Both the position numbers and the translations under genes were made by a program. 64,000 nucleotides of DNA from Streptomyces sp. NBC_00878. Lineage in GTDB: Bacteria > Actinomycetota > Actinomycetes > Streptomycetales > Streptomycetaceae. Below the pieces are notes generated by a model. It searched no databases. It was not told the DNA's origin and was given only the letters and a program-made list of their open reading frames with translations. This document shows, in pieces, positions 24,572-35,821 of this stretch (positions within the stretch are counted from its first letter, which is position 1; each line of letters begins with the position of its first letter). The stretch covers positions 372,001 to 436,000 of the forward strand of contig NZ_JAPEOK010000001.1 in NCBI RefSeq assembly GCF_026341515.1. Direction: 5' to 3'.

Positions 24572-27103
<2,532 letters not shown>

Positions 27104-27392
27104 GCGAGCCCCGCACAGCCCGGAGTTCGGCGGCGGACAACGCATGGCGCGGCGACTGCGACCGTCGCGCCATGCCCACCCGTCCCGGCGTGCGCACGGA
27201 GTCCACGAGCACCCGGCACCCCTCCGGTGGATCCGCCGACGCGCCCGTCGACACACCCGCCGAGAGAGCACGACAGTTGGTATGTACCTGACCATGAAGT
27301 GCCGCTAGGCTCTGCTCCGCCATGAAATGAGAGCGCTCTCACAGTTCAGCTGTTCCTCCCCCACCTTGCTGGAACAACGAAGGGCTACTGCC
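27104..27392. other. Gap between xylanase and protease
   Basis: 289 bp. There is no clear terminator after the xylanase. The notable element is the 14-bp palindrome at 27328-27341; a TAGGCT hexamer at 27306-27311 could be the -10 box of the protease promoter, but its -35 is poor. Confidence 0.4.
27328..27341. promoter_or_regulatory. CebR-like/LacI-type operator before the protease
   Basis: TGAGAGCGCTCTCA is a perfect 14-bp palindrome with central CG. It differs from the CebR box TGGGAGCGCTCCCA by one symmetric pair. It lies 52 bp upstream of the TTG start of the S1 protease. Confidence 0.6.
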
Positions 27393-28562
27393 TTGAGACG
27401 CACCACGACCATGCGCACCGGCCTTGCCGCCCTCCTTCTCGTCGGCGGCACCTGGGCGACCGTCGCCGCCGGACCCGCCTCGGCCGCCGACGCCCCCGAA
27501 CCCGCCCGTTCCTCCGGCGCTCCGGCCTCCGCCGCGCTCCTCGACGCCATGCAACGCGACTTCGGCCTGACGAAGAGCCAGGCCGAGGCTCGGCTCGCCG
27601 CCGAGAAGACCGCGACGGCCGTCGAGCCGACGGCGCGGCGCGCGGCGGGAGCCGCGTACGGCGGCTCCTGGTTCGACGCCGAGAGCGGGAAGTTGACCGT
27701 CGCCGTCACGGCCGGCGCCTCCGACGCCGCCGTCGATTCCGTACGGGAGACCGGCGCGAGTGTCCGTACCGTCAAGTACAGCGCGCGACAGCTCGACGCG
27801 GCCAAGGCCCGCATCGACAAGCTGGACGCGCCCGAGGGTGTCAGCAGCTGGCACGTCGACGCCAAGGCCAGCTCGGTCGTCGTGGCCGTCGCCGCCGCGC
27901 AGCGTGCCGACAACGACGTCCAGAAGTTCCTTTCGAAGGCCCGTGCGGCGGGTCCCGTCACCGTCGAAGAGGCTGCCAAGGCGCCCGAGACCTTCGCCGC
28001 CGGGACGGTCGGCGGCGACCCCTTCTACACCGGCAACGTCCGCTGTTCCATCGGGTTCTCGGTGCACGGCGGCTTCGTCACCGCGGGGCACTGCGGCGGG
28101 GCGGGCCAGAGCGTCAGCGGCTGGGACCGCTCCTACATAGGAAACATCCAGGGCTCCTCGTTCCCGGACAACGACTACGCCTGGGTCAACGTCGGAAGCG
28201 GCTGGTGGACCGTGCCGGTCGTGCTCGGCTGGGGCACCGTTTCGGACCAACTGGTCCGCGGATCCGCCGAGGCGCCCGTCGGTGCCTCCATCTGCCGGTC
28301 GGGGTCGACCACGCACTGGCACTGCGGCACGGTGCTCGGCAAGAACGAGACCGTCAACTACAGCCAGGGCGCGGTGCATCAGATGACCGGAACCAGCGTC
28401 TGCGCGCAGCCGGGCGACTCCGGCGGCTCGTTCATCAGCGGCGACCAGGCGCAGGGGGTCACCTCCGGCGGCTATGGCGACTGCACCAGCGGTGGTCGGA
28501 CCTGGTTCCAGCCCATCAACGAGATCCTCAACCGGTACGGCCTCACGCTCCACACGGCCTGA
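27393..28562 (+). CDS. Secreted S1 serine protease (streptogrisin/alpha-lytic type)
   Basis: 389 aa. The TTG at 27393 is preferred over ATG 27411 because GAAGG stands ~8 nt before it. After a signal peptide (GLAALLLVGGTWATVAAGPASAA) comes a ~170-residue propeptide of the alpha-lytic type, then the mature enzyme near TVGGDPFYTGNVRCSIGF. The catalytic triad is visible: His in TAGHC (~231), Asp in DNDYAWV (~260), Ser in PGDSGGS (~344). Three disulfide pairs are likely. It is an extracellular chymotrypsin-like protease; the exact streptogrisin subtype is not assigned. Confidence 0.95.
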   Translation: MRRTTTMRTGLAALLLVGGTWATVAAGPASAADAPEPARSSGAPASAALLDAMQRDFGLTKSQAEARLAAEKTATAVEPTARRAAGAAYGGSWFDAESGKLTVAVTAGASDAAVDSVRETGASVRTVKYSARQLDAAKARIDKLDAPEGVSSWHVDAKASSVVVAVAAAQRADNDVQKFLSKARAAGPVTVEEAAKAPETFAAGTVGGDPFYTGNVRCSIGFSVHGGFVTAGHCGGAGQSVSGWDRSYIGNIQGSSFPDNDYAWVNVGSGWWTVPVVLGWGTVSDQLVRGSAEAPVGASICRSGSTTHWHCGTVLGKNETVNYSQGAVHQMTGTSVCAQPGDSGGSFISGDQAQGVTSGGYGDCTSGGRTWFQPINEILNRYGLTLHTA

Positions 28563-28606
28563 TCCGGCGGGCTGCGCGGTACGGCTGTTCCACGGTACGC
28601 CTCGAC

Positions 28607-28640
28607 GGGCTCCGTCACCGGCCAGGTGACGGAGCCCTTT
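28607..28640 (+). terminator. Terminator of the S1 protease
   Basis: GGGCTCCGTCACC pairs perfectly (13 bp) with GGTGACGGAGCCC across a 5-nt loop, followed by TTT. It is 45 bp after the protease stop. Confidence 0.85.
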
Positions 28641-28834
28641 GCCGTCCGCCCGGGCCACCCCGCCCACCACCTGGGGGCCGAAGAGCCCTTGATTCACCGC
28701 CCGTTCACCGAGCCTGCCACCTCCGTCGGTGCACCCCGCGTCCCAACGACCTACGCTCGGCGGCACTTCACGGGACCGGTCCCCCGACGGGCAGCCGGGC
28801 CCCGTTGCCCGTCACCGACGGAAGGTTCCGTTAC

Positions 28835-31282
28835 ATGCTCCACAGATCCACCGCTGTGGCGCGGAGGTTCGGCAGGAGAGCCGCCGTCCTCGCGCTGACC
28901 ACCGCGCTCGCCGCCGCACTGCCCGGCCCGGTCTCCTCGGCGGCCGACGTCGCCGAGGCCCCGGCGCGGCCCACCGCGTTCGTCGACCCGCTCATCGGCT
29001 CGACGAACGGCGGCAACACCTACCCGGGTGCCACCCTCCCGTACGGCATGATCGCCTGGTCGCCGACCAGTACCCGGGGCGACCAGACCAGCACGGGCGC
29101 CGCCAACGGCTACGAGTACAACGCGACCCGGCTGCGCGGGCTGAGCCTCACCCACGTCAACGGCGCGGGCTGCAACCCGGGGGCCGCCGGCGACGTACCG
29201 ATCATGCCGTTCGTCGGGGACGTCACGTCGTCGCCCTCGGCCGACACCACGGACTCCGTCTACGCCGCGAACTTCTCACACGCCGACGAGCGGGCTGTAC
29301 CGGGCCGCTACTCCGTGGGGCTCGACTCCGGTGCCCGCGCCGATCTCGCCGTCTCCCGGCGCGCCGGCGTCGCGGACTTCACGTTCCCCGCCGACAAGCC
29401 CGCCAACCTGCTCTTCCGGGTCTCCAACTCGCTCAATGGCAGCGAGGACGCCCACGTCGAGATCGACCGGGCCAAGCGCAAGGTGAGCGGCTGGGTACTG
29501 ACCGGCGCGTTCTGCGGGCGGCGCGCCAACGGCGGCGTCAACAACCGCAAGAGCTACTACCGGCTCTACTTCAGCGCCTCGTTCGACCGCGCGTTCTCCT
29601 CTGCGGGTACGTGGAAGGACGGCGCCCTCTCCCCCGGTGCCGTCTCGGGCGGAGGCGGCGAGGGGTACGCCACCGGTGCGGACCGCGCGGGCCGCGGCTC
29701 CGGAGGCTGGGTCGGCTTCGACACCGCGTCCGACAACGATGTCCGCATGCGGCTGGGCATCTCGTACGTGAGTCTCGCCGGTGCCGAAACCAACCTCCGC
29801 CAGGAGATCGCGCCGCGGACGAGTGTCGACGAGGTGGCGGCGGCCGGGAGCCGGGCCTGGGACCGCGAGCTGCGTTCCGTACGCGTCGGGGGTGGCAGTA
29901 CGGCCCAGCGCACCGCCTTCTACACCGCGCTCTACCACTCGCTGATGCAGCCGAACCTGGTCAGCGACACCGACGGCCGTTATCCGGGCATGGACGGCAA
30001 GCCGCATCGCGTGGAGCACGGGCAGGGGGCGCAGTACAGCAACTTCTCCGGCTGGGACCAGTACCGGGCGCAGATACAGCTGCTCGCCCTGCTCAAGCCG
30101 CGGATCGCCGGGGACTTCGCCCAGTCCCTCCACAACTTCGCACGGCAGAACGGTGGGGTGTGGGACCGCTGGGTGCACATCAACGGCCCCACCCACGTGA
30201 TGACCGGCGATCCGACGGCGGCCACACTCGCCACCTTCTACGCCATGGGGGTCCGCAACTTCGACTACCGCGGCGCCTTCGACTCCCTGGCCCGCCAGGC
30301 CACCGTGCCGCACCCCGACGGGCTCTCCGACGCGGGCTGCCCCGGCCAGTGCACGGGCCAACGGCCCAACCTCGCCCAGTACTTGACCTCCCAGTACGCG
30401 GCGCAGGACGTCTGCCACTGCTGGGGCGGTGCCGCCGAGACCCTGGAGGACTCGGTCGCCGACGACGCACTCGGCCGCTGGGCGAAGCTGCTGGGCCTCA
30501 ATGAGCAGGCCGCCGCCTTCACCGCGCGGGGCGGCTGGTGGCGCAACGTCTTCAACCCGGGAGCCACCGACGGGGCGGGCACCAACGGCTACATCCAGGC
30601 CCGCAATCTCGACGGTTCATGGGTCACTCCGTTCAGCCCGGGCAGCGATCGCGGTTTCGCCCAGGGCACCAGCGCCACGTACACGTGGATGGTGCCGCAG
30701 GACGTGCAGGGGCTCGCCGAGGCGATGGGCGGACGCGAGTCGGCCGCACGTCGGCTGGACGGCTTCTTCCACAAGCCCGACGGTTCCTGGTCGGTGAAGG
30801 GTGGTGACGCTCTGCGGTACGACCCGACCAACGAGCCCGGCATTCACGCCCCTTGGCTCTACAACGCGCTCGGTCAGCCGTGGAAGACCCAGGAGACGGT
30901 CCGGCAGATCCTCGACACCGTGTACGGCACCGGACCTGCCGGGCTGCCCGGCAACGACGACCTCGGCACCATGTCCGCCTGGTACGTCTTCTCGGCGCTC
31001 GGCCTCTATCCGCAGACCCCGGGCAGCGCCAACCTGCTCCTTGGCGCCCCGCTCTTCCCGCACGCCGTGGTCGACCGGCGGGGTGGCGGTGACATCGTCA
31101 TCGACGCGCCCACCGCCGACGCCGACCATCCGTACGTCAGTGGTGTCCGGCTCAACGGCCGTGCGTACGACCGTTCCTGGACGGATGCCCGCTTCCTGCG
31201 GAACGGTGGAACGCTCTCCTTCGGCCTCGCGCGGCAGCCGGACACCGGCTGGGCGACCGCGCCCGAAGGACTGCCCCGCTGA
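28835..31282 (+). CDS. Secreted GH92 alpha-1,2-mannosidase-like glycoside hydrolase
   Basis: 815 aa, GH92 of typical length. ATG 28835 follows GGAAGG; the larger open frame from 28205 overlaps the protease and is rejected. A signal peptide ends near SSAADVAEA. Family landmarks are FVDPLIGSTNGGNTYPGATLPYGMIAWSP at the N-terminus, catalytic-site NEPGIHAPWLYN (~665) and the near-invariant GNDDLGTMSAWYVFSALGLYPQTPGS. The enzyme should remove alpha-mannose from glycans with Ca2+; substrate linkage is not determined. It is bounded by terminators on both sides, so it is monocistronic. Confidence 0.92.
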   Translation: MLHRSTAVARRFGRRAAVLALTTALAAALPGPVSSAADVAEAPARPTAFVDPLIGSTNGGNTYPGATLPYGMIAWSPTSTRGDQTSTGAANGYEYNATRLRGLSLTHVNGAGCNPGAAGDVPIMPFVGDVTSSPSADTTDSVYAANFSHADERAVPGRYSVGLDSGARADLAVSRRAGVADFTFPADKPANLLFRVSNSLNGSEDAHVEIDRAKRKVSGWVLTGAFCGRRANGGVNNRKSYYRLYFSASFDRAFSSAGTWKDGALSPGAVSGGGGEGYATGADRAGRGSGGWVGFDTASDNDVRMRLGISYVSLAGAETNLRQEIAPRTSVDEVAAAGSRAWDRELRSVRVGGGSTAQRTAFYTALYHSLMQPNLVSDTDGRYPGMDGKPHRVEHGQGAQYSNFSGWDQYRAQIQLLALLKPRIAGDFAQSLHNFARQNGGVWDRWVHINGPTHVMTGDPTAATLATFYAMGVRNFDYRGAFDSLARQATVPHPDGLSDAGCPGQCTGQRPNLAQYLTSQYAAQDVCHCWGGAAETLEDSVADDALGRWAKLLGLNEQAAAFTARGGWWRNVFNPGATDGAGTNGYIQARNLDGSWVTPFSPGSDRGFAQGTSATYTWMVPQDVQGLAEAMGGRESAARRLDGFFHKPDGSWSVKGGDALRYDPTNEPGIHAPWLYNALGQPWKTQETVRQILDTVYGTGPAGLPGNDDLGTMSAWYVFSALGLYPQTPGSANLLLGAPLFPHAVVDRRGGGDIVIDAPTADADHPYVSGVRLNGRAYDRSWTDARFLRNGGTLSFGLARQPDTGWATAPEGLPR

Positions 31283-31343: not shown

Positions 31344-32171
31344 TCAGACCTTGCGGTACCTGGCCATGGCGAACGAGAACAGTCCGAAGAGCAACAGACC
31401 GACGGCTATGAGCACCAGCAGCCACGGCCCCGCCGGGGTCTCGGTGAACGAGCGCAGAGTGTCGTCCACGCCCTTGGCCCTGTCCGGTTCGTACTCCTCG
31501 GCGGCCCGGAGCGCGAAGCCTCCGGCGACGGCGAACACCAGACCGCGGGCCACACCGCCGCCGACGCCCGTCACGTCGACCGTCCGGCGCACCCGGTGCG
31601 ACATCTCACCGAGCCTCATGTGCTTGTGGTACTTCCGGCGCGCGGCCTGCACCACCATCCAGACACCCGCGCAGAGGATCGCCGCGCCGGCCGCGGCCAC
31701 GAGCCACTGCCCGGCGGGCAGGTCCATGGCTCTGGCCGTCGCGTCCCGGGACTTGCCGTCGCTCGATCCACTCCCGGCGGAACCGGCGGCGAAGGAGAGC
31801 GCGGAGTAGGCGACCAAGCCGTAGAACACGGCTCGTGCGGCCGACGCCAGCCTCTTCTTCCCCTTGTGGCCGTCGGGGCCCGCCGCGCCGAAGACCGCCT
31901 CGGACAGCCGCCAGAGCGCCATACCGACCAGCCCGATGCCGAGCGCCCAGAGCACGGCCTCACCGAAGGGCTTCCCGGCGACCTCCTGGAGTGCGCCCCC
32001 CTGATCCGCCTGCTTGCCGCTGCCGCCGAAGGCGATCTGCAGCGCCAGCAGGCCCACCAGCAGGTAGATGACACCGCGCGCGGTGAATCCTGCCCGGGCC
32101 GCGCCCTCGATCGCCGGGGCAGCCTTGCGTTTCCCCGCCCGGCCGCCTCGCGTCAACGTGCTTGCGTTCAT
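31344..32171 (-). CDS. DUF1206 integral membrane protein
   Basis: 275 aa. Two adjacent ATGs follow GGGAGG; the second (32171) has the better 5-nt spacing. Six membrane helices fall in three pairs (GFTARGVIYLLVGLLALQIAF..., ALSFAAGSA..., GVARGLVFAVAGGFALRAA), matching the internally repeated DUF1206 family (each repeat starts ARGxxYxxxG). The function is unknown. It is divergent from the REC-oxidoreductase operon, 181 bp away. Confidence 0.9.
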   Translation of the reverse strand: MNASTLTRGGRAGKRKAAPAIEGAARAGFTARGVIYLLVGLLALQIAFGGSGKQADQGGALQEVAGKPFGEAVLWALGIGLVGMALWRLSEAVFGAAGPDGHKGKKRLASAARAVFYGLVAYSALSFAAGSAGSGSSDGKSRDATARAMDLPAGQWLVAAAGAAILCAGVWMVVQAARRKYHKHMRLGEMSHRVRRTVDVTGVGGGVARGLVFAVAGGFALRAAEEYEPDRAKGVDDTLRSFTETPAGPWLLVLIAVGLLLFGLFSFAMARYRKV

Positions 32172-32352
32172 CATTGCCTCCCGCTCTCGCAGGTGCCCCT
32201 GCCCGGCCGTACGACACCCGGGCGGGCGCCGCCCGTGCGGTACCTCCCGGTTTCGGAGCGAAGCGGGACGATCGAACATACGATGGGCATGCACCGGGGC
32301 GGCATGGCAGTCGGGCCGCACCGGGACGCCGACCGCTCGGGGTGGGAGACGC

Positions 32353-34029
32353 ATGGCACAGGGCACGGACGCGGCACGGACCGTCATCCTGACCGTGGAC
32401 GACGATCCGGGGGTTTCGCGTGCCGTGGCCCGTGACCTGCGGCGTCGTTATGGCGAGGAGTACCGGATCGTGCGCGCCGAGTCGGGCGAGAGCGCCCTCG
32501 ACGCGCTGCGGGAGCTGAAGCTGCGCGGTGATCTCGTCGCGGTGATCCTGGCGGACTACCGGATGCCCCAGATGAACGGCATCGAGTTCCTGGAGCAGGC
32601 CCTGGACGTGTACCCGGGCGCGCGGCGCGTGCTGCTGACCGCGTACGCGGACACGAACGCCGCCATCGACGCGATCAACGTCGTCGACCTCGACCACTAC
32701 CTCCTCAAGCCCTGGGACCCGCCCGAGGAGAAGCTCTATCCCGTCCTGGACGAGCTCCTGGACGCCTGGCGGACCTCCGACCACCGGGCGGTGCCGATCA
32801 CGAAGGTCGTCGGGCACCGCTGGTCGGCCCGCTCGTCGGACGTACGGGAGTTCCTGGCCCGCAACCAGGTGCCGTACCGCTGGTACTCGTCGGACGAGCC
32901 GGAGGGCAAGCGGCTGCTGGCCTGCGCGGATCAGGACGGTGAGCGGCTGCCGCTCGTGGTCACCGCGGACGGGGCCGTGCTGGTCGAGCCCGACGACCCC
33001 GAGCTGGCCGCCCAGGTGGGGCTGGCCACGACACCGGCCGAGGACTTCTACGACCTCATCGTCATCGGCGGCGGACCCGCCGGGCTCGGCTCGGCGGTGT
33101 ACGGGGCTTCGGAGGGACTGCGGACCGTGCTGGTGGAGCGCTCCGCGACCGGCGGGCAGGCGGGCCAGAGCTCACGGATCGAGAACTACCTCGGCTTCCC
33201 GGACGGCGTGTCCGGGGCCCAGCTCACCGACCGGGCCCGGCGTCAGGCGTCGAAGTTCGGCGCCGAGATCCTGACCGCGCGCGAGGTGACGGGGCTGGAG
33301 GTCAACGGTTCCTCGCGGACCGTGCGGTTCTCCGACGGTTCCGCGATCTCCGCGCACTGCGTGATCCTGGCGACCGGTGTGTCGTACCGGCAGCTGCAGG
33401 CGCCGGGCACGGATGGCCTGACCGGGTGCGGCGTGTACTACGGCTCGGCGCTGACCGAGGCGGCCTCGTGCCAGGGGCACGACGTGTACATCGTCGGCGG
33501 CGCGAACTCCGCAGGCCAGGCTGCGATGTTCCTGTCCAGGGGCGCGAAGTCGGTCACCCTGCTCGTGCGCGGCTCCTCCCTGTCCGCGTCGATGTCGCAC
33601 TACCTGATCGGGCAGATCGAGGGTGCGCCGAACATCAACGTCCGTACGGGGACGGTCGTCGAGGCGGCGCACGGCTCCGACCACCTGGAACAGCTCACCC
33701 TGTGCGACGTCGCGAGCGGGCACACCGAACTCGTCGACGCGCAGTGGATGTTCGTGTTCATCGGCGCGGCCCCGCTGACCGACTGGCTGGACGGCACCGT
33801 GCTGAGGGACGAACGCGGGTTCATCGTCGCCGGACCCGACCTGGCCGTCGGCGGACAGCCGCCGCCCGACTGGGAGCTGGACCGGGCGCCGTACCATCTG
33901 GAGACGAACGTGCCCGGAGTGTTCGTGGCGGGTGACGCCCGCGCCGAGTCCGCCAAGCGGGTCGCCTCCGCCGTCGGAGAGGGAGCCATGGCCGTGATGC
34001 TCGTCCACCGGTATCTGGAGCAGTCGTGA
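32353..34029 (+). CDS. Receiver/glutaredoxin-like/thioredoxin-reductase-like fusion without redox cysteines
   Basis: 558 aa; ATG 32353 follows GGGAGA. Residues ~10-130 are a receiver (TVDDDPG; phospho-Asp in VILADYRMPQMNG; Lys in YLLKPWDPP). Residues ~150-225 resemble a glutaredoxin fold (KVVGHRWSARSSDVREFLARNQVPYRWYSS) whose CxxC has become SARS. From ~235 comes a TrxR-type flavoprotein (LIVIGGGPAGLGSAVY; ATGGQAGQSSRIENYLGFP; VYIVGGANSAGQAAMF), but the CATC active site is GSAL (GVYYGSALTE). It therefore cannot cycle a dithiol in the usual way, and may be a flavin/NADPH sensor or a ferredoxin-reductase-like enzyme. It overlaps the next gene by 4 bp. Confidence 0.9.
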   Translation: MAQGTDAARTVILTVDDDPGVSRAVARDLRRRYGEEYRIVRAESGESALDALRELKLRGDLVAVILADYRMPQMNGIEFLEQALDVYPGARRVLLTAYADTNAAIDAINVVDLDHYLLKPWDPPEEKLYPVLDELLDAWRTSDHRAVPITKVVGHRWSARSSDVREFLARNQVPYRWYSSDEPEGKRLLACADQDGERLPLVVTADGAVLVEPDDPELAAQVGLATTPAEDFYDLIVIGGGPAGLGSAVYGASEGLRTVLVERSATGGQAGQSSRIENYLGFPDGVSGAQLTDRARRQASKFGAEILTAREVTGLEVNGSSRTVRFSDGSAISAHCVILATGVSYRQLQAPGTDGLTGCGVYYGSALTEAASCQGHDVYIVGGANSAGQAAMFLSRGAKSVTLLVRGSSLSASMSHYLIGQIEGAPNINVRTGTVVEAAHGSDHLEQLTLCDVASGHTELVDAQWMFVFIGAAPLTDWLDGTVLRDERGFIVAGPDLAVGGQPPPDWELDRAPYHLETNVPGVFVAGDARAESAKRVASAVGEGAMAVMLVHRYLEQS

Positions 34030-35474
34030 GCGGGCAGCCGATGCCGTGCGACGCGGCCGAGCTCGGCACACTCTTCCTGTTCGAGAAGCTGGACGCCGAA
34101 CAGCTGGGACGGCTGTGCCAGGAAGGGCGCGTGGAGAAGTTCGAGCCCGGCTTCGTGTACCAGGAGGGCGAACCGGCCACCTGCTTCTTCGTGCTCCTCG
34201 AAGGCACGGTCGTGATGTCGCGCCGGGTCGGCGGCGACGACGTGGAGATCAGCCGCACGTCCCAGCGCGGGGTGTACGCGGGTGCCATGCAGGCCTATCT
34301 GGCCGCCTCGGACGACGCGAGCTACAAGGGCTCCCTGCGGGTCACCGTGCCCTCCCGGTTCTTCATCCTGCCCGCGGAGACGTTCAACGCGGTCCTGCGG
34401 GAGTGGTTCCCCATGGCCGTGCACCTGCTGGAAGGACTGTTCTTCGGCAGCCAGAACACCCAGCGGACCATCGGGCAGCGCGAGCGGCTCCTGGCACTGG
34501 GCTCGCTGTCGGCCGGGCTGACGCACGAGCTCAACAACCCGGCCGCGGCGGCCGTACGGGCCACGTCCGCGCTGCGGGACCGGGTGGCCGGGATGCGGCA
34601 CAAGCTCGGCCTGATAGCGACGGGCTCGTACGCGCGCGCCGCGCTGGAGCAGCTCGTCGAGATCCAGGAGCGCACCGCCGAACAGGTCGCCAAGTCCACG
34701 CCCTTGAGCCCGCTCGAAGCCTCCGACCGGGAGGACGCGCTCGCCGACTGGCTCGACGACCGCGGCATCGCGGGCGGCTGGCAGCTCGCGCCGACGTTCG
34801 TGCAGGCGGGCCTCGACACCGACTGGCTGGACCAGGTCGCGGCGACCGTGGACGAGGGGACGCTCGAAGGCGCGATCAGGTGGCTCAACTACACGGTGGA
34901 AACCGAGCTGTTGATGAACGAGATCGAGGACTCCACGACCCGGGTCTCGAATCTCGTGAACGCGGCCAAGCAGTACTCCCAGCTCGACCGCGCGCCCTAC
35001 CAGGTCGCCGATGTGCACGAACTCCTGGACAGCACACTGATGATGCTCGCCGGGAAGATCGGCCCCGGCATCAGGATCGTCAAGGAGTACGACCGTACGC
35101 TGCCCAGGATCCCCGCCTACCCGAGCGAGTTGAACCAGGTGTGGACGAACCTCATCGACAACGCGGCCTCCGCGATGGGCGGCGAGGGTGTACTGACCGT
35201 ACGCACCGCGCTCGAACGGGAGCGGCTGCTCGTCGAGTTCCGTGACACCGGGCCCGGCGTGCCCGAGGAGATCCGCGGCCGGATCTTCGACCCGTTCTTC
35301 ACCACGAAGCCCGTGGGCGAGGGCACCGGACTCGGGCTCGACATCTCCTGGCGCATCGTCGTGAACAAGCACCACGGGCATCTGGAGGTGCACTCGGAAC
35401 CCGGCGACACCCGTTTCCAGGTCTTCCTCCCGCTCACCGCCGCCGAACCCGACGCCCCTGAGGAGGCCTCATGA
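34026..35474 (+). CDS. Histidine kinase with N-terminal cyclic-nucleotide-binding domain
   Basis: 482 aa, GTG 34026, no membrane helix. Residues ~12-135 form a cNMP-binding/Crp-like beta barrel (LFLFEKLDAEQLGRLCQEGRVEKFEPGFVYQEGEPATCFFVLLEGTVVMS). The phospho-His lies in LSAGLTHELNNPAAAA (~168), and the ATPase domain shows NLIDNAASAM, RDTGPGVPEEI, IFDPFFTTKPVGEGTGLGL. Its GTGA start overlaps the oxidoreductase stop, so its partner is probably the receiver of that fusion. It would sense a small ligand or partner domain in the cytosol; the bound nucleotide is unknown. Confidence 0.92.
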   Translation: MSGQPMPCDAAELGTLFLFEKLDAEQLGRLCQEGRVEKFEPGFVYQEGEPATCFFVLLEGTVVMSRRVGGDDVEISRTSQRGVYAGAMQAYLAASDDASYKGSLRVTVPSRFFILPAETFNAVLREWFPMAVHLLEGLFFGSQNTQRTIGQRERLLALGSLSAGLTHELNNPAAAAVRATSALRDRVAGMRHKLGLIATGSYARAALEQLVEIQERTAEQVAKSTPLSPLEASDREDALADWLDDRGIAGGWQLAPTFVQAGLDTDWLDQVAATVDEGTLEGAIRWLNYTVETELLMNEIEDSTTRVSNLVNAAKQYSQLDRAPYQVADVHELLDSTLMMLAGKIGPGIRIVKEYDRTLPRIPAYPSELNQVWTNLIDNAASAMGGEGVLTVRTALERERLLVEFRDTGPGVPEEIRGRIFDPFFTTKPVGEGTGLGLDISWRIVVNKHHGHLEVHSEPGDTRFQVFLPLTAAEPDAPEEAS

Positions 35475-35821
35475 CGACGCCGGACGGAATCGACCCCAGC
35501 GTCCCGCCGAGCGGCGCGGGGTGCGTCGAGTGCGATGCGGCGGGCGGCTGGTGGTTCCATCTGCGGCGCTGTGCGCAGTGCGGTCACGTGGGCTGCTGCG
35601 ACGACTCCCCCGCCAAGCACGCCACCGCCCATCACCAGGCCACCGGCCATCCGTTCATCCGCAGCTTCGAGCCGGGCGAGCGCTGGTTCTGGAACTTCGA
35701 GACGTCCGAGCTGTACGAGTCCGGTCCGGACCTCGCCCCGCCGCTCGCCCACCCGGCGGACCAGCCCACGCCCGGACCCGCGGGACGGGTTCCGGCGAAC
35801 TGGGCGGACACGCTGCGCTGA
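35471..35821 (+). CDS. UBP-type zinc-finger protein
   Basis: 116 aa, ATG overlapping the kinase stop (ATGA). The sequence CVECDAAGGWWFHLRRCAQCGHVGCCDDSPAKHATAHHQATGHPFIRSFEPGERWFWNFETSELYE carries the Cys/His ligands of a ZnF-UBP fold: CxxC, CxxC, a further Cys and three His. In eukaryotes this fold binds the free C-terminal Gly-Gly of ubiquitin; the bacterial role is unknown. Being third in a coupled operon suggests it acts with the flavoprotein or kinase. A Pro-rich tail follows. The ligand motif is spelled in pieces: CVEC, RCAQC, GCC, KHATAHH, GH. Confidence 0.9.
   Translation: MTTPDGIDPSVPPSGAGCVECDAAGGWWFHLRRCAQCGHVGCCDDSPAKHATAHHQATGHPFIRSFEPGERWFWNFETSELYESGPDLAPPLAHPADQPTPGPAGRVPANWADTLR

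Follow-up and report, generated by a model that had tools for sequence, protein, structure and literature searches.

A published sister of the protein considered here is ATII-TrxR from a Red Sea brine pool, in which a cyclic nucleotide-binding-type (cNMP) domain is combined with a module resembling thioredoxin reductase (TrxR); the purified protein is reported to be dimeric and FAD-bound and to use both NADPH and NADH, and Cys206-Cys223 and Cys376-Cys467 are given there as the redox centres (PMC6544261). Response regulators that combine a receiver (REC) domain with thioredoxin reductase have already been named in passing as 'Mycobacterium-like', and the accessible part of that source mentions neither a glutaredoxin (Grx)-like part nor lost cysteines, a kinase or a UBP finger (PMC5847659). 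AhpF carries, besides its TrxR-type fold, an N-terminal thioredoxin-fold part (PMC8945050), and the fold works without a CxxC in the TrxR-like ferredoxin/flavodoxin NADP reductases (PMC10294844). Bacterial zf-UBP mini-proteins were placed among the conserved hypothetical proteins in a survey from 2008 (PMC2602986). Here, we describe three genes that are joined by two 4-base overlaps and encode a fusion flavoprotein (REC–Grx-like–TrxR-like), a histidine kinase that is soluble and has a cNMP domain, and a zinc finger of the UBP type. This trio lies in a stretch of 64,000 nucleotides from Streptomyces sp. NBC_00878 (contig NZ_JAPEOK010000001.1, positions 372,001 to 436,000; hereafter the window). 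We suggest, with a probability of about 0.55, that the trio is a conserved three-part signalling unit consisting of the kinase, an NAD(P)H/FAD regulator that lacks the TrxR dithiol, and the UBP finger as an accessory.

Judged by its published description, ATII-TrxR has a cNMP domain and a TrxR-like FAD module, but its cNMP domain is fused directly to the module and REC is absent. The window fusion has the FAD/NAD(P)H fold in common with TrxB and AhpF; unlike these, it contains no CxxC in either part and carries REC and a single Grx-like domain in front. With the TrxR-like ferredoxin/flavodoxin NADP reductases it shares a TrxR fold without CxxC, although the fold match is weaker, and we know of no REC or Grx parts in those enzymes. 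The third protein has its best solved relative in PDB 2ida, a small stand-alone bacterial UBP finger from Rhodopseudomonas, which was deposited as a hypothetical protein. The ZnF-UBP of eukaryotic USP5 belongs to the same family (E 1.3e-3) and has the pocket aromatics in common with it, whereas the bacterial finger has more conserved Cys/His residues and a replaced pocket Arg. The accessible text of a review on Deinococcus thiol reductases contains nothing on such fusions, and the review never uses the term 'cyclic nucleotide' (PMC8945050). In the literature searched, with most subscription journals outside its coverage, we found no description of the trio, which looks like a redox signalling system so far undescribed as such.

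An initial annotation of the locus had claimed a coupled gene trio with a receiver fusion, a cNMP-type kinase without a membrane part and a ZnF-UBP protein, and had further claimed that both redox centres of the fusion are lost. Both observations are confirmed: the genes overlap at GTGA and ATGA, and in the alignments SARS stands in the place of the Grx CxxC and GSAL in that of the TrxR CATC. In a first alignment of 30 rows, comprising the window and 29 relatives of the actinobacterial phylum, Cys occupies the TrxR positions in none. In a set of 140 relatives from several phyla (loci L063-L224; Actinobacteria, Cyanobacteria, Deinococcus, Pseudomonadota, Bacteroidota, Acidobacteria and others), from which module matches below 450 bits and incomplete ones were left out (e.g. 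L077, whose gene is split, as well as L183 and L217, which lie at the end of a contig), no member has Cys at position 364 or 367 of the TrxR dithiol and no member has a CxxC in the Grx loop, so that the survey of Cys-loss conservation proposed in the annotation gave 0/140 for an intact CxxC at either place. A single Cys among positions 158-161 of the Grx loop is found in 12/140, a CxxC anywhere in the Grx-TrxR part in 3/140 and there in contexts off the active site, and 13 further Bacteroidota modules contain no CxxC. As judged from these alignments, dithiol loss is a mark of the family as sampled; recent decay of a TrxR in a single lineage is ruled out by the family-wide absence of the cysteines in this sample. 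The description of the fusion as 'cysteine-free' was, by contrast, an overstatement: position 373, which lies nine residues past the first lost Cys, is occupied by cysteine (C373) in 98/140 relatives (56/71 with an intact REC, 34/37 cNMP-fused, 6/10 with neither domain and 1/21 with a degenerate REC).

The module retains TrxR-type FAD and NAD(P)H domains, as identified by Pfam and by matches to solved structures, together with the glycine-rich dinucleotide motifs, its fold being assigned by prediction. The predicted model of the fusion superimposes on the FR-type TrxR form 5mh4 and on the TrxR–Trx complex 1f6m with root-mean-square deviations of 2.1 and 2.4, respectively, and fits the structures titled as FO form less well (7.4 for 5mjk and 5.2 for 5w4c). 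A low-Mr thioredoxin reductase was rejected as an assignment: the FAD/NAD(P)H fold fits, but the redox-active CxxC is lacking and the score of 209.2 bits against TIGR01292, the NCBIfam TrxR equivalog, lies below the cut-off of 343.45. AhpF fails on the missing N-terminal thioredoxin-fold CxxC and on a score of 154.7 bits against the AhpF equivalog TIGR03140 (cut-off 502.9). The Grx-like domain has the Grx/NrdH fold, but glutaredoxin was rejected as well, the catalytic Cys of the CxxC/CxxS loop being absent in the window, where SARS is found instead. What the chain does have is a TrxR fold without CxxC, as in the TrxR-like ferredoxin/flavodoxin NADP reductases. We do not class the fusion as a thioredoxin reductase because the defining dithiol was looked for and is absent; the dithiol is missing, and the normal TrxR relay is therefore impossible for this module. 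On its sequence features, the trio is filed here as a two-component system with an unusual output rather than as a thioredoxin reductase. Relatives of the fusion are named FAD-dependent oxidoreductase or thioredoxin-disulfide reductase in databases, and the dithiol that the latter name implies is present in 0/140.

The two-component residues are in place on both sides, i.e. the H, N and G boxes in the kinase and D16, D17, D68, T96 and K119 in REC. Among 75 kinases, the window's included, H167 and N379 are kept in 75/75 and the G-box residues in 74-75/75. The cNMP_binding match of the window kinase (30.4 bits) exceeds the cut-off of 27.5; the canonical phosphate-binding motif with its Arg is absent in this kinase and present in some distant ones, e.g. 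L109. A profile of the kinase cNMP domains gives the cNMP-fused flavoproteins a median of 71 bits (43-94) versus 92 and 90 for two Crp-like proteins. A common origin of the cNMP domains of kinase and cNMP-fused flavoprotein is not supported by these scores; since Crp-like proteins score at least as high, the idea of the same sensor domain being swapped holds as a superfamily-level statement only. A kinase lies within 2.5 kb of the fusion at 63/71 loci with an intact REC phosphosite (acidic pair, D68 and K119) versus 1/22 with a degenerate one (raw p 2e-13), a count that left out loci with less than 2.5 kb on both sides. At the sole degenerate locus with a kinase (L081), the phosphosite is gone only because the contig begins within the gene. 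When the distance limit is widened and the window is included, a kinase is near 67/71 intact and 0/20 degenerate REC domains. The association fits phosphotransfer from kinase to REC, and it is not significant over independent pairs. Two loci (L103 and L104) have three cNMP kinases in tandem behind a single REC fusion.

The initial annotation regarded random association of the three genes in relatives as fatal to its proposal; the linkage is kept in genus, multi-phylum and Bacteroidota samples, which rules out random adjacency. Final neighbour calls were made by profile searches over stop-to-stop frames. Among 121 Streptomyces genomes drawn evenly and including that of the window, 58 contain an orthologue of the fusion at 59 loci (a truncated copy, G219, and a contig-edge copy, G306, included). 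A same-strand kinase follows at 58/59 loci, a UBP gene is present at 54/59 and both are present at 53/59 (one of these, in G023, with a split UBP gene), and the spacing of fusion and kinase is consistent with a start/stop overlap at 51/58. The six incomplete loci are G211 at a contig end, G263, G237, G253 and one of two in G313 without a UBP gene nearby, and G219 without a kinase; 11 UBP matches in the genus sample lie apart from any fusion.

A multi-phylum scan with one genome per species covered the best 80 of 154 relatives, 78 of them with a complete module, and the shares from it are not unbiased. Among these best 80, a match to the kinase profile lies within 2.5 kb of the REC fusion in 39/49 cases, a UBP gene within 3 kb in 14/49 and both in 13. 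Proteins with cNMP in place of REC have a kinase in 0/23 and a UBP gene in 5/23 cases at the same limits, and 4/6 proteins with neither domain have a UBP gene within 3 kb. Among 148 genomes of the Bacteroidota, the phylum of Dyadobacter (L151), a UBP match above cut-off is found in 16, the module in 23 and both in 14 (p 6e-12), with UBP alone in 2 and the module alone in 9. Within 2 kb of a module match and on the same strand lie 12/16 of these UBP genes, and 11 complete trios are arranged as UBP–kinase–fusion (9) or kinase–fusion–UBP (2). Among 198 genomes of the window's own phylum, 45 have UBP, 47 have the family by a hand count that took matches including the Grx part and left out the weakest ones, and 31 have both (p 4e-14); the actinobacterial counts 31, 14, 16 and 137 are hand counts. 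The co-occurrence values may be too high owing to genome size, on which adjacency does not depend.

UBP-type zinc fingers bind ubiquitin in human cells. The window's finger matches zf-UBP with 47.7 bits (cut-off 22.7). Among 67 UBP rows, the window's included, C18, C21, C34, C37, C42, C43 and H50 are invariant and H54 and H60 are kept in 66/67, which makes this set the predicted, candidate zinc ligands; R32 is invariant too. Relative to the USP5 pocket, the aromatic places are kept (Trp, W28, in 66/67; W in 57 or Y in 9 at place 74; Y in 51 or F in 15 at place 76), and in this one alignment the place of the pocket Arg is His in 57/67, so that the aromatic-plus-Arg clamp is not found. A pocket for C-terminal peptides in the bacterial finger is possible. 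In L109, a single open reading frame contains cNMP, HATPase and zf-UBP domains, and among the 120 best-listed relatives of this protein 51 carry the same three domains by precomputed Pfam, a share that is biased because the query itself is a kinase–UBP chain. The existence of kinase–UBP single chains ties the finger to the kinase; the finger also stands beside cNMP-fused flavoproteins without such a kinase and is therefore tied to the flavoprotein as well.

Several further UBP genes were observed. The UBP gene behind the trio kinase in genome G023 is broken across two frames (L086:10375-10606), and a second UBP finger of the window's genome lies outside the window and apart from the trio (G000:C1:3520320-3520481; L002). 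UBP fingers are fused to cation:proton antiporters, i.e. a Na_H_Exchanger–UBP chain by Pfam (L091:5207-7117) and, by eye, a Kef/TrkA-like chain (L237:2941-5097). On Rhodococcus and Nocardia plasmids (L127, L137 and L142), UBP closes a chaperone operon in the order J-domain protein, CbpM, ClpB, TrxA and UBP; a cNMP-TrxR gene comes next in L127 and L137, then DUF1931, and GrpE is found in L137 and L142 and DnaK in L142.

Table 1. Features of the trio locus; positions are those of the window.
Feature	Position	Strand	Length or support
REC–Grx-like–TrxR-like fusion flavoprotein gene	32353..34029	+	558 aa
REC domain, residues 12-124	32386..32724	+	PF00072 7e-15; D16 D17 D68 T96 K119 present
Asp68, predicted phospho-acceptor	32554..32556	+	alignments
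Grx-like domain, residues ~150-222	32800..33018	+	
SARS (158-161) replacing Grx CxxC	32824..32835	+	alignment
TrxR-like FAD/NAD(P)H module, residues 229-558	33037..34026	+	PF07992; solved TrxR structures
GSAL (364-367) replacing TrxR CATC	33442..33453	+	alignment
Cys373, conserved lone cysteine	33469..33471	+	alignment of relatives
GTGA start/stop overlap, fusion/kinase	34026..34029	+	sequence
cNMP-domain soluble histidine kinase gene	34026..35474	+	482 aa; Pfam; conserved kinase boxes
cNMP-binding-type sensor domain, residues 43-125	34152..34400	+	PF00027 4e-7
His167, predicted autophosphorylation site	34524..34526	+	His in 75/75 kinases
HATPase domain, residues 366-471	35121..35438	+	PF02518 1e-22
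ATGA start/stop overlap, kinase/UBP finger	35471..35474	+	sequence
UBP-type zinc-finger protein gene	35471..35821	+	116 aa; PF02148 1.9e-12; best solved relative 2ida, E 1e-24
zf-UBP domain, residues 18-80	35522..35710	+	invariant Cys/His set

A promoter scan of the window locus found no sigma-70-like promoter, and the same scan gave 1 terminator-like site versus 0.8 expected. A DUF1206 gene (31347-32174, minus strand), which by our reading likely starts near 32174, is divergent from the trio, and further upstream (25151-31282) lie a GH10 gene with CBM2 and a GH92 gene. Clustering of the neighbours of trio loci gave lineage-specific genes and was confused by shadow open reading frames, and no regulon was drawn from it. 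On a Tsukamurella plasmid (L131), the trio is followed by genes for S-(hydroxymethyl)mycothiol dehydrogenase and for a hydrolase of the MBL fold, two enzymes that may jointly detoxify formaldehyde. On three cyanobacterial plasmids (L123, L124 and L140), glgX and a gene for an AGE epimerase precede the fusion, which is followed by an ATP-binding (kinase) gene in 3/3 and by a low-temperature-requirement gene in two. By eye, the neighbours in seven loci (L078-L080, L174, L180, L182 and L184), four of them mycobacterial by title, include the ribosomal-protein genes S13, S11, S4 and L17 and rpoA.

Combining domain content, conserved residues and linkage, we suggest that the cNMP-type domain of the soluble kinase would detect a cue from inside the cell, that the kinase would autophosphorylate on His167, and that the phosphate would pass to Asp68 of REC, both sites and the adjoining kinase gene being observed. 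Phosphorylation might then alter the activity or partner contacts of the Grx-like/TrxR-like FAD module. This module probably takes over hydride or electrons supplied by NAD(P)H and hands them via FAD to an acceptor other than a dithiol relay; alternatively, it may report the state of NAD(P)H and flavin, perhaps by way of the retained C373. The UBP finger would serve the kinase or the flavoprotein as an accessory or for docking; it also neighbours the module at loci where a cNMP domain, fused directly to the module, takes the place of REC and kinase.

Several observations weigh against this three-part unit. No biochemistry on any member of the trio was found in the literature searched, and ATII-TrxR is reported to reduce thioredoxin and DTNB (PMC6544261), which is at odds with a module without disulfide chemistry. 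The kinase cNMP domain is no closer to the flavoprotein cNMP domains than to the two Crp-like proteins, leaving a shared ligand unsupported, and with wider limits 4/33 cNMP-fused proteins have a kinase match within 3.5 kb. The link between REC and kinase is clade-structured: four independent pairs exist on supported branches (six on all branches), of which two agree, none opposes and two show no difference (sign test p 0.5), in an analysis that left out neighbour states where the flank was short. Co-evolution of REC and kinase was thus abandoned as a statistical claim, as this test cannot reach significance. An adjoining UBP gene is missing for 35/49 REC fusions of the multi-phylum scan (best 80 of 154) and for 5/59 genus loci; on a quick tree, UBP proximity comes and goes with at least 20 changes, against 12 changes in architecture and 6 in the kinase.

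Four other explanations have to be considered. The module could resemble the TrxR-like ferredoxin/flavodoxin NADP reductases and act as an electron-transfer enzyme with a switch, phosphorylation gating the flow of NAD(P)H electrons to a carrier such as ferredoxin, flavodoxin or a quinone; the fold without CxxC suits this proposal, the weaker structural match does not. As to the C-terminal segment that in those reductases stacks on the partner's FAD, the single-chain model of the fusion ends with the last TrxR-like helix. We consider this explanation unlikely, if worth keeping in mind. A distinctly unlikely one is that the fusion is a thiol enzyme after all, in which the lone C373 together with a second thiol in trans, from thioredoxin or the Cys-rich UBP finger, reduces disulfides. 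The retention of C373 in 98/140 relatives speaks for it, and so does the reported reduction of thioredoxin by ATII-TrxR (kcat 28.4 per s) besides that of DTNB (PMC6544261). By spacing, Cys376 of ATII-TrxR may occupy the C373 place. A megaplasmid-encoded cNMP + TrxR protein of C. metallidurans CH34 (L135), which has the same architecture as ATII-TrxR and whose identity with the record compared by those authors is unconfirmed, lacks the active-site CxxC and has WASP where TrxR has CATC, and trxA lies beside UBP and cNMP-TrxR on the Rhodococcus and Nocardia plasmids. However, C373 is missing in 15/71 members with an intact REC and present in 1/21 of the REC-degenerate group, and the thioredoxin activity comes from a single report on recombinant protein, the accessible part of which leaves carry-over of host TrxR possible.

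It would be quite improbable that the flavoprotein acts as a sensor only, its flavin redox state being read through REC to the kinase with turnover incidental. REC and kinase do go together, and the predicted model is nearer to 5mh4 and 1f6m than to the FO-titled structures; but a predicted conformer carries little weight, no constant downstream transcription factor was seen at the trio loci examined, and ATII-TrxR is reported to turn over NADPH with a Km of 5.21 uM (PMC6544261). A reading that is more improbable still has the UBP finger recognize Pup or a ubiquitin-like tag and so couple tagging to redox signalling. The finger belongs to the zf-UBP family and keeps the pocket Trp (66/67) and the two other aromatic places relative to USP5, but the place of the pocket Arg is mostly His, UBP fingers occur on cation:proton antiporters as well, and of 13 further genomes tested that contain a UBP-linked module, several of them metagenome-assembled genomes of unknown completeness, none yielded Pup. 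Pup is present in the window's own genome, that is in 1/14 genomes with the unit, and is disfavoured as the partner of the finger. The initial proposal of an NAD(P)H/flavin-linked signalling device, possibly interacting with a small-protein tag such as Pup, is thus partly supported: the picture of a linked, conserved unit that includes a flavin/NAD(P)H module is strengthened and the Pup idea weakened, and the underlying observation was right apart from small overstatements.

If the three-part signalling unit is correct, it would represent a widespread two-component system in which a flavin/NAD(P)H module, and not a transcription factor, is the output, and it would place the bacterial UBP zinc finger in a functional context. 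A bolder proposal, which we regard as rather unlikely, is that the trio is a widespread and probably old module in which the UBP finger recognizes a peptide C-terminus or a similar small ligand and docks this ligand or its carrier to the kinase-controlled NAD(P)H/FAD protein, which would have lost its dithiol chemistry. If true, ubiquitin-type finger recognition would be wired to flavin signalling in bacteria that lack Pup, and the same finger would have a regulatory function on antiporters.

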